A stretch of 19,500 nucleotides of DNA from a bacterium (GTDB lineage Bacteria; JAJVIF01; JAGGVT01), in NCBI GenBank assembly GCA_021157815.1, contig JAGGVT010000190.1:1-19500 (forward strand), read 5' to 3'. The notes beneath the pieces are model-generated. The model did no database searches, was not told the origin of the DNA, and saw only the letters and a program-made list of their open reading frames with translations. Within the stretch, counting starts at the first letter, position 1. Every line of letters starts with the position of its first letter. The position numbers were made by a program, and so were the translations under genes. This document shows positions 731-18,313 of the stretch, piece after piece.

Positions 731-791
731 CACCAGTGATTGATATTTTGCCAGAAAATGGGTCGTACGGTTTTCGGGGAGCGGGTCAGCC

Positions 792-875
792 GGGCTGTTG
801 AAAAGCCTTTTTATCCCATACTGTAGGGGCGAACCTTGTGTGTACGCCCCTACATTAGCGCTTTTTCAACAGCCC
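792..875. repeat. 84-bp MITE-like palindrome with GGGCTGTTGAAAA termini
   Basis: Terminal inverted repeats are GGGCTGTTGAAAA (792-804) and its complement TTTTCAACAGCCC (863-875). An inner perfect 10-bp inverted repeat, TGTAGGGGCG (822-831) / CGCCCCTACA (845-854), forms a second hairpin. The same termini recur at 2387 and 2574 around a different interior. No convincing target-site duplication flanks this copy. The 298 bp between the lipoprotein gene and the glycosyltransferase (655-952) otherwise hold only the lipoprotein's 5' signals and AT-rich sequence. Confidence 0.8.
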
Positions 876-952
876 CACACTCTCGACTTTCAACAAAAAA
901 AGAAGGTTGGACATCTCTTTTAGTATTATTTTAGTTAAAGCTAAACAACCTG

Positions 953-2161
953 TTGAAAATGCTAAAATGGCGGGTGATGACGCGCGGTGAACGAAAATTC
1001 AATCCCGATGATGGACTGCTTCTTCTCATCGATGCTCCTCCCTACAGGGGCTTGATGCAGCGGCATCAGCAAATCGTAAACAGATTAAAAAACCGGATTC
1101 GAATAGTTTATCAGGAGGAATCTCCCAGCATTCTGTCATGCCTGTTGAAAAAGCAATATTCATTTTCCCAAGCTTTTGAATATAAAAAAGGCATGCGGGA
1201 GATATCATCGGGCCTTTTTCATATTTGCTCTCCACCGGGATTGCCTGAGAAACTTGGATTTAACTGGGTGAATCGCCTGAATCATATCGCGGCTTATAAT
1301 CATCTGAAACATCATTTGGAGAAAATGGGAGGCAGGATTGTTCTGTGGATTGCGCATCCCAAAGGCATTGAGATAGCTGATTATCTCGATTACGAGTTGT
1401 GTATCTATGACTGCTATGACTCCTTTGGCGATTTTTCTGAGGAGAAATGGAAATCAGCCCAAACAAAGCAGCTTGAATTAAAATCGCTGGCGAAAGCTGA
1501 TCTTGTGCTTGCCAGTGCGGAATCGCTGGCGGATACATGCAGACAGCATAATGCGAATGTGCATCTTGTTTCGAATGGAGCGGATGTTTCCCATTTTCAG
1601 AGGGTTATGTCGAAACCCGGAAAGAAATATCCGATTGACATTTCGCAGATAAAACGACCCATTGTCGGTTACATGGGTGATATAGCATCGTGGCTGGATA
1701 TCGATTCCCTTTTGAAATGCGCGTCAGAAATGCCTGATGCCAGTTTTGTTTTTCTTGGGACAATAAAACGTAATATTGAAAATCTTCGCGCATTGCCGAA
1801 CGCGCATTTCTTTGGCAGGATTGACTACGATGACCTGCCGTATTTTATACGCCATTTCGATGTCTGCACGATTCCGTTTGAAATTAACGAGATGACTGTT
1901 CATGTGAATCCAATCAAGGTTTATGAATATATGGCGACCGGGCTTCCGATTGTCAGCTCAAAACTTCCCGAGGTGCTTAATCTGGGCGATTTGGTCTATT
2001 TTTATAATGGCGCGGATGATTTCATTGAGAAAGTTAAGGATGCGCTTGGGGAGAAGGAGAATCAATTAAATCTGAGTGAGCGTCGAAAAGAAGCCGCGAA
2101 GGCGAATTCGTGGGATGCTCGTGTTGATTTGATTTGGGAATTGATTGAGGGGACTGTGTAG
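953..2161 (+). CDS. Glycosyltransferase, GT4-like (GT-B fold)
   Basis: The 402-residue product is predicted to move a sugar from a nucleotide-sugar donor onto an envelope glycan or similar acceptor at the cytoplasmic side of the membrane. The C-terminal half shows the donor-binding Rossmann domain: RPIVGYMGDIASWLDI (about 235-250), MPDASFVFLGT (260-270), NAHFFGRIDYDDLPYFI, and NPIKVYEYMATGLPIV (319-334), whose glutamate in the KVYEYMA helix is the usual GT4 donor-binding acid. SNGAD (207-211) is the usual inter-domain motif. The order and the about 400-aa length suit GT4/TuaH-like enzymes. The start is uncertain: TTG at 953 and ATG at 959 are both in frame and neither has a clear ribosome-binding site. 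It stands alone with no visible operon partner and converges on the PBP gene. The acceptor cannot be read from the sequence. Confidence 0.85.
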   Translation: MKMLKWRVMTRGERKFNPDDGLLLLIDAPPYRGLMQRHQQIVNRLKNRIRIVYQEESPSILSCLLKKQYSFSQAFEYKKGMREISSGLFHICSPPGLPEKLGFNWVNRLNHIAAYNHLKHHLEKMGGRIVLWIAHPKGIEIADYLDYELCIYDCYDSFGDFSEEKWKSAQTKQLELKSLAKADLVLASAESLADTCRQHNANVHLVSNGADVSHFQRVMSKPGKKYPIDISQIKRPIVGYMGDIASWLDIDSLLKCASEMPDASFVFLGTIKRNIENLRALPNAHFFGRIDYDDLPYFIRHFDVCTIPFEINEMTVHVNPIKVYEYMATGLPIVSSKLPEVLNLGDLVYFYNGADDFIEKVKDALGEKENQLNLSERRKEAAKANSWDARVDLIWELIEGTV

Positions 2162-2203
2162 GGGCGTTGCTTGGAAACTGTCTCAGAACTAATAAACATC
2201 TAG

Positions 2204-2333
2204 AGACCTCTGAAAAAAGGAAATAAATGGTAGCCCGGTTTCTCATTAACCGGGGTAATGCGTGAATATTACCCATGTTTTCCCGGCTAATGAGAAGCCG
2301 GGCTACAATATTAAGAATCTTTTCCAGAGGTCT
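2204..2333. repeat. Nested 130-bp element, AGACCTCTG termini, 7-bp target duplication CATCTAG
   Basis: The ends AGACCTCTG (2204-2212) and CAGAGGTCT (2325-2333) are inverted copies, followed inward by A-rich/T-rich runs. CATCTAG occurs directly before (2197-2203) and directly after (2334-2340), as expected of a target-site duplication; it can equally be read as 5 bp, ATCTA, with GAGACC...GGTCTC ends. The interior is a near-perfect 25-bp hairpin (2230-2254 / 2282-2306, two mismatches). A lone copy of the terminus sits at 18259-18268. Confidence 0.8.
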
Positions 2334-2386
2334 CATCTAGTAAATATCCTGTGAATATCTAACAATTTTGTGCTGCGGGCATCCTG

Positions 2387-2574
2387 GGGCTGTTGAGAAA
2401 ACCTGTTTTAATTTTATCTTCCCTCAAAGATGGCAAATTGTCATTCTGAACTTGATTCAGAATCCACGTCTTCCAGGCTTGAATATGGATTCCGGGTCAA
2501 GCCCGGAATGACATTGAATATACTTGATGGTTTTATTATGATTTTCTGGTCTATTAAACCTTTTTCAACAGCCC
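2387..2574. repeat. Nested 188-bp element, GGGCTGTTGA termini, 7-bp target duplication CATCCTG
   Basis: The ends GGGCTGTTGAGAAAA (from 2387) and TTTTTCAACAGCCC (2561-2574) are inverted. CATCCTG is present on both sides (2380-2386 and 2575-2581). The insertion splits a hairpin whose uninterrupted relative is present at 17606-17636, where GGGCATCCTGCCTGCA is continuous, so the empty site is visible in the same window. The element carries a REP-like palindrome (2439-2513). Confidence 0.85.
2439..2513. repeat. REP/BIME-like palindrome (TGTCATTC...GAATGACA)
   Basis: The ends are TGTCATTC (2439-2446) and GAATGACA (2506-2513). Inside are two hairpins: ATTCTGAA-CTTG-ATTCAGAAT and the perfect ATTCCGGG-TCAAG-CCCGGAAT. 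Related sequence occurs at 18192-18249. Read as protein it gives the typical repeat-derived string 'FRVKPGMT', which is not a gene. Confidence 0.8.
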
Positions 2575-2665
2575 CATCCTGCCTGCAGCACAAAATTACT
2601 GGTTATTTGCACATTTCAATTAGTTCTGAGACAGTCTCCGCGCTGCGCCTGAAATATATTCGGGA

Positions 2666-17694: not shown

Positions 17695-18313
17695 CTATTT
17701 ACGTTTATCATCCGAACACTCCGGCTCGCCGAGTACAGTAACGCCATCAATAATTACTTCACCCAAATATTCCTTTTCAGGTGATAGCTTATATATTGGC
17801 ACTCCCGGACGAAACAGCACGATAGTGCCGTCACGTGCAATACGGATATCACTGAGAATATACAATCCCTCGCCCCATGTCCAGAGTTCGGCGCCGTTTG
17901 AATTATATTTATGGACCGTCACTATGTCCCTTGAGAGTATCGCGCCAGTACTGTGGAACATAATTACGCCTTATGATATTTCCTTTCTCATCAATATACA
18001 TGAAGAAATCAAGATATCCGCACTGCATGGCGCCGATATATGAACCGTTCTCCAAAGGCAGGATTTCCTGAAGGCATTTATCCATGTAACCCGCATGAGC
18101 AGGCGCAATCAGAATGAGTGTTATAAGAAAAGCCATTATTGCTGCAGCACCCCGAAAAAATGATACTGTCTTTCGAAGCCTGACAAGAGTAGATTCCGGG
18201 TCAAGCATGGAATGACAGTAGCTTGTCATTCCGGCGAAAGCCGGAATCCATCCTTTTTCAGAGGTCTCCACTATTTTTCTTTGTTTGTTTGGCATACTCT
18301 GTATGATACTCAA
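17695..18313 (-). pseudogene. Decayed small exported protein gene (frameshifted, repeat-invaded 5' end)
   Basis: Two overlapping minus-strand frames appear to be one broken gene. The upstream frame (18313-17909) gives a signal peptide, IMAFLITLILIAPAHA, then GYMDKCLQEILPLENGSYIG and MYIDEKGNIIRRNYV; after that it runs into an unrelated 15-residue tail. The second frame (from ATG 17961 to 17695) continues naturally with STGAILSRDIVTVHKYNSNG, ELWTWGEGLYILSDIRIARD and GTIVLFRPG, so a one-base frameshift lies near 17950-17965. The 5' end of the upstream frame (about 18180-18268) is REP repeat, translated as GWIPAFAGMT, so the original start is probably lost; the nearest ATG downstream of the repeat is at 18135. 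The fragments look like short beta-strand repeats of a propeller or YD-like protein. An alternative is two tiny overlapping genes. No function is recognised. Confidence 0.5.
18192..18268. repeat. REP-like pair plus a lone CAGAGGTCTC terminus
   Basis: ATTCCGGGTCAAGCATGGAAT (from 18193, ending GACA) is a diverged version of the hairpin at 2490-2513. TGTCATTCCGGC-GAAA-GCCGGAAT (from 18224) is a clean hairpin. CAGAGGTCTC (18259-18268) equals the right end of the 2204-2333 element, but no left partner is found. Confidence 0.7.

Follow-up and report, generated by a model that had tools for sequence, protein, structure and literature searches.

A stack of nested MITEs in which an IS1182-family transposase probably placed one element into hairpin tips, with nesting that may be self-reinforcing

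Insertion sequences of the IS1182 family, namely IS1272 and TnSha1, insert in hairpins, which they delete partly or wholly, and no duplication is produced (PMC5678879, PMC4923244). Duplication of the loop has been drawn as a possible "pathway c", without data, in one of these studies (PMC5678879). REP sequences carrying a GTAG tag have also been described (PMC3733652), and a hairpin of this type surrounds the locus reported here. The window, which is the whole 19,500-nt stretch that was analysed, belongs to contig C64 of a 3.2-Mb genome assembled in 221 contigs. We consider it fairly probable that the locus is a stack of MITEs in which an IS1182-family transposase put one element, B, into hairpin tips, and that nesting of this kind is self-reinforcing. 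With this target preference, more can be learned from the locus than from the nest by itself.

Structure of the nest and its elements

The nest is located in the convergent intergenic space between a glycosyltransferase gene (end 2161, forward strand) and a penicillin-binding protein gene (end 2666, reverse strand). The original prediction of three nested inverted-repeat elements in this space was confirmed by direct reading together with repeat finding, with two elements, A and B, inside an outer element, O. The nesting stood as predicted, and the limits of 2173–2639, 2204–2333 and 2387–2574 were refined to 2174–2638, 2203–2334 and 2386–2575. A search of Rfam revealed no match within the window. 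The features, all given on the forward strand, were as follows.

791–876 (+): second B-type element, 86 bp, enclosing an uninterrupted GTAGGGGCGAACCTTGTGTGTACGCCCCTAC hairpin of the type targeted by O
2158–2173 (+): left half of the GTAG-type REP hairpin hosting O, GTAGGGGCGTTGCTTG, overlapping the stop codon of the upstream gene
2174–2638 (+): outer element O including both inserts, termini GAAACTGTCTCAGAACTAAT / ATTAGTTCTGAGACAGTCTC
2198–2202 (+): left target duplication of A, ATCTA (sequence, compared with other copies)
2203–2334 (+): element A, 132 bp, ends GAGACCTCTGAAAAA / TTTTCCAGAGGTCTC (closest other copy 99.2% identical)
2228–2309 (+): palindromic core of A, termed Q, TAGCCCGGTTTCTCATT...AATGAGAAGCCGGGCTA, also found alone and, at other loci, a target of O
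2335–2339 (+): right target duplication of A, ATCTA (sequence, compared with other copies)
2366–2380 (+): left arm of the O core hairpin, TTTTGTGCTGCGGGC (sequence, repeat finding and folding)
2381–2385 (+): left target duplication of B, ATCCT, the tip of the O core hairpin (copies and folding)
2386–2575 (+): element B, 190 bp, a putative IS1182-type MITE, ends GGGGCTGTTGA / TCAACAGCCCC (copy comparison)
2439–2513 (+): REPIN-like double hairpin in B (solo copies elsewhere in the genome)
2576–2580 (+): right target duplication of B, ATCCT (copies and folding)
2581–2595 (+): right arm of the O core hairpin, GCCTGCAGCACAAAA, at the deletion junction
2639–2650 (+): right half of the host REP, CGCGCTGCGCCT, in decayed form; O lacks an exact target duplication here

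The repeats of 7 bp that had been read around A and B, CATCTAG and CATCCTG, are real; the duplication proper is 5 bp long, and the element ends match the additional C and G. The REP-like unit predicted at 2439–2513 could also be recovered, as a pair of inverted hairpins. The 86-bp B-type element lies upstream of the glycosyltransferase gene. At 18190–18270 of the window, a short predicted ORF includes a lone A terminus and a pair of CGTC-type REPs, with the REP translating in frame as GWIPAFAGMT.

The other copies expected elsewhere in the genome were found. The B terminus produced 239 matches at no more than one mismatch (0 for the reversed control), the A terminus produced 50 (control 1), and O was present in more than ten copies. 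B copies are 96–98% identical within a subfamily, and from the close identity of copies the movement of both A and B looks fairly recent. As in MITEs, A and O are multicopy and gene-less, and have terminal inverted repeats and target duplications, which were 5 bp in 7 copies of A and 4–5 bp in 7 copies of O. No match to O was found among 39 other genomes, most of which are related at the domain level only.

Without A and B, the outer element measures approximately 133 bp. It had been reconstructed as an element of 135 bp; comparison with the other copies revealed it to be not the ancestral form but a core-deleted member of a family whose complete copies are approximately 182–194 bp long (approximately 190 bp for the copy on C175). 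The full core pairs the REP-like hairpin GCGGGC-ATCCT-GCCTGC with its reverse, in inverted orientation. Only one of the two is kept in the window, where GCCTGCAGCACAAAA follows immediately after ATCCT. The loss would most simply be explained by deletion between GCCTGCA and GCCCGCA, two segments of similar sequence, and the O copy on C185 has an identical junction.

Elsewhere, O occupies either GTAG-type REP loops (4 bp, mostly CTTG or CAAG) or the Q palindrome, and most of these copies have an exact target duplication. The flanks of O in the window read CTTG on the left and CGCG on the right, with no exact duplication. The assembly is fragmented at these repeats, with contig ends often falling inside B copies, and individual junctions could be chimeric. 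Such observations would fit a nest, or edges of a nest, created by misassembly of repeat copies. This explanation is very improbable, as the duplications of A and B in the window are perfect, equivalent nests are present on several other contigs, and the REP halves to the left and right of O still match in part.

The predicted order, with the outer element first and the inserts later, held at this locus. O preceded A because in most of its other copies, which are paralogues within this genome, the A site is uninterrupted; these are the insert-free sites that had been anticipated. It preceded B by the nesting itself. As a general rule the order failed, since O is elsewhere (C175, C146 and C156) inserted in Q, the palindromic core that A contains. 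The description of the locus as three generations was an undercount, because further layers are formed by the REP hairpin around O, the double-REP core in O and the double-REP core in B. A family with CTCGACTTTCGAC ends was also observed at the ATCCT tip of O, as was an inverted-repeat family of approximately 300 bp with CTCGACTTTCGACATTTA ends; the CTCGACTTTCGACATTTA-ended family adjoins a B element from C14:9913 onward (L063) and from C146:34527 onward (L083).

Target sites of the elements

The targets of B were evaluated in 63 distinct copies for which both flanks were available. Exact duplications were present in 41 of them, with lengths of 4 bp (n = 19), 5 bp (n = 18) and 6 bp (n = 4). 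Empty sites were obtained by rejoining the flanks around a single duplication, and the symmetry axis was tested at 17 offsets. At least five pairs formed around the duplication in 38 of the 41 empty sites, and in 37 of these 38 the centre of the loop coincided with the centre of the duplication at zero offset. The best stem lay uniquely on the duplication axis in 37/41 sites and was tied in two more. Nearly all of the 41 copies retain both arms of the stem.

The paired positions numbered 5.0 of 6, compared to 3.55 when flank partners were shuffled (2000 shuffles, maximum 4.29) and to 2.1 of 6 when the axis was slid by one base; 0.6% of random genome sites had 5/6 pairs. When the sample was collapsed to 22 distinct targets, 4.6 paired positions were observed vs 3.2. 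The comparison of flanks suggests that B selects hairpin tips, and that O does likewise, less strictly. The hairpins used by B include ATTCCCGC-GAAA-GCGGGAAT (the CGTC-type REP) and GCGGGC-ATCCT-GCCTGC (the O core), as well as CGCGGAC-AGCCTT-GTCCGCG, GCCGCA-GTAGCC-TGCGGC, GGGTGGAT-TTAAA-ATCTACCC and CCATGC-TTTA-GCATGG. As tips of 4 to 6 nt are duplicated in different hairpins, the length of the duplication follows the palindrome, within the narrow range of 4–6 bp. The term "tip" is preferred here to "unpaired loop" because the first and last bases of the 5-bp duplications can pair.

Most B targets come from a few repeat families (CGTC-type REP and O core), so that a sequence preference could contribute to the signal. 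B might even act on sequence alone, recognising a small number of abundant REP families, as IS1397, ISKpn1 and ISPsy8 do, with the dyad centring as a by-product of REP palindromy. Of the targets with duplications, over half come from two REP families, and REP-specific insertion sequences are known, ISPsy8 being located at the REP symmetry axis with a 3-bp duplication (PMC1525189). We regard this explanation as decidedly unlikely, since eight or more hairpin sequences, differing in their tips, serve as targets of B, with insertion nearly always on the axis and a duplication length that tracks the spacer. Related IS1182 elements also hit hairpins that lack a sequence consensus (PMC4923244, PMC5678879). 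Moreover, yet other hairpins serve as targets of elements with B termini in another family of this class, to which the genome G001 belongs. Exact B termini number 30 in G001 and 10 in G003. Among the G001 and G003 copies examined, ten have duplications of 4–5 bp, most of them at or near hairpin tips of differing sequence (for example ATGTGC-TTCCA-GCACAT), which suggests that tip targeting by elements with this terminus recurs in that family.

The repeated finding of B within O could instead reflect the spread of O and B as one composite unit through the transposase of O, so that the common position of B would result from copying. On C64, C43, C27 and C193, O carries a 190-bp B at the identical ATCCT and in one orientation. 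Yet these four O copies are of different arm subtypes and their B copies differ by 2–3%, other O cores have B elements of other lengths in one arm or the other, and sites of this kind are used by B outside O as well, targets that composite spread leaves unexplained. Composite spread therefore appears rather unlikely, and repeated targeting of hairpin tips remains the preferred reading.

Approximately 16 further B copies have no exact duplication. Beside these, another six copies, listed below, have no duplication, and their two flanks are mutually reverse-complementary.

L187:1024: inverted-flank B copy
L213:1289: inverted-flank B copy
L236:545: inverted-flank B copy
L242:240: inverted-flank B copy
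L243:543: inverted-flank B copy
L165:1385: inverted-flank B copy

These six could have been produced by recombination between two B elements, one in each hairpin of a double REP, by blunt insertion on the axis of a perfect palindrome or, by analogy with IS1272, by a hairpin-replacing event. An O element holding two B copies was observed on C27.

For O, the evidence of targeting consists of the 7 copies with duplications. Six of the 7 empty sites fold with at least five pairs around the duplication; the axis is 0.5–1.5 nt off in several, and the strict centred-stem test was not significant. For A, hairpin preference was not above background in the folding and centred-stem tests, and hairpin targeting by A was rejected on this basis.

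Transposases and the proposed course of insertion

The gene-less elements had been predicted to move in trans, and transposase remnants bearing B ends support this. Two Pfam transposase loci in the genome, on C90 and C56, share B-type ends. The remnant at C90:4771–5765 starts with GGGGCTGTTGAAAAA and ends with TATTTCAACAGCCCC, which are the B termini, and two pieces of its protein match the NCBIfam IS1182 model NF033551 (E-values of 1e-32 and 1e-13), with scores under the curated cut-off because the element is decayed. The copy on C56 has a related, B-like left end, GGACTTGTTGAAAAG. Both copies are decayed and split between frames. Thus, of the transposase expected to be bordered by element termini, a decayed IS1182-type version was found for B; no DDE transposase locus found was bounded by A or O ends at up to four mismatches. 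In this incomplete assembly no intact B transposase was detected by PF13751, PF05598, PF01609 and protein searches. Comparison of the B transposase with named genomes produced only distant matches in Neisseria and Haemophilus (30–35% identity), uninformative for ends or targets.

An intact 337-amino-acid IS1182/IS5-like transposase is present at C155:6729–7742 (L174), in an element that adjoins or lies in a truncated ORF near the contig end; it was set aside as a source of B because its ends, GGTACCGTTGCAAAA, differ. Two copies of a decayed DDE transposase element that has CCAATCGCGGATTT-type ends and no relation to A, B or O were observed at C103:10950 (L320) and C84:9657 (L321). The genome also contains nine Y1_Tnp (RAYT-like) genes (C65, C216, C189, C151, C56, C83, C182, C85 and C84) and inverted REP pairs. 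Among eight Y1_Tnp loci examined, only that on C56 (C56:36019) clearly has a B-core REP nearby.

As expected of an IS1182-family MITE, B shares its ends with IS1182-family insertion sequences of this genome and occupies palindromic targets. B was probably mobilised by the IS1182 transposase, and its target may be recognised as an extruded hairpin instead of a symmetric duplex. In the proposed course, O would have entered a REP hairpin at its tip, between the two convergent genes, B subsequently into the tip of the core hairpin of O itself, and A into the left arm of O. An IS1182-family DDE transposase would have moved B, choosing dyad-symmetric, hairpin-capable targets, and would have joined its ends on both sides of the tip, so that the tip of 4–6 nt becomes the target duplication. 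Since all three elements are palindromic and have REP-like cores, every insertion brings in further targets, and nesting would become self-reinforcing. Mutual targeting of palindromes may thus drive the accumulation of nested elements. A broader proposal is that this IS1182-family DDE lineage reads structure and not sequence and duplicates the tip, with the length set by the hairpin, while its palindromic MITEs breed targets for a chain of nesting; for this proposal we regard the case as evenly balanced.

Comparison with known systems

IS1272 and TnSha1 resemble B in their transposase family and in their use of hairpin targets that lack a sequence consensus. The "IR-replacing" insertion of IS1272 removes the hairpin, partly or completely, and leaves no duplication, whereas B retains the stem and duplicates the tip of 4–6 nt; only the six inverted-flank copies could fit hairpin replacement, or else recombination between B elements. 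Dozens of B insertions that keep the stem and duplicate the tip represent an outcome allowed by the published IS1182 model and unseen in it. In the openly accessible papers that were searched, hairpin targeting by IS1182 elements is described only together with loss of the hairpin, and no case of tip duplication by them was found. The variable, yet dyad-locked, duplication makes it testable that a DDE transposase takes its cut positions from the structure of the target.

IS1397, ISKpn1 and ISPsy8, which belong to the IS3 family, are similar to B in their insertion into REP hairpins, on the axis and with a short duplication in ISPsy8 (PMC1525189). They differ in transposase family and in using one REP type each, while B uses several unrelated hairpins. 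REPINs and the GTAG and CGTC REPs associated with RAYT (PMC3116915, PMC3733652) resemble the hairpins that host the elements, as well as the element cores, all of which are single or paired REP-like palindromes. However, the terminal inverted repeats of O, A and B are of DDE type and are accompanied by target duplications, features not known for REPINs. Ordinary bacterial MITEs are also short and gene-less, with target duplications and, as for B, terminal repeats shared with an insertion sequence. Unlike them, O, A and B appear to nest recursively by mutual targeting of palindromes, which offers a simple reason for small palindromic repeats piling up inside each other in bacterial genomes.
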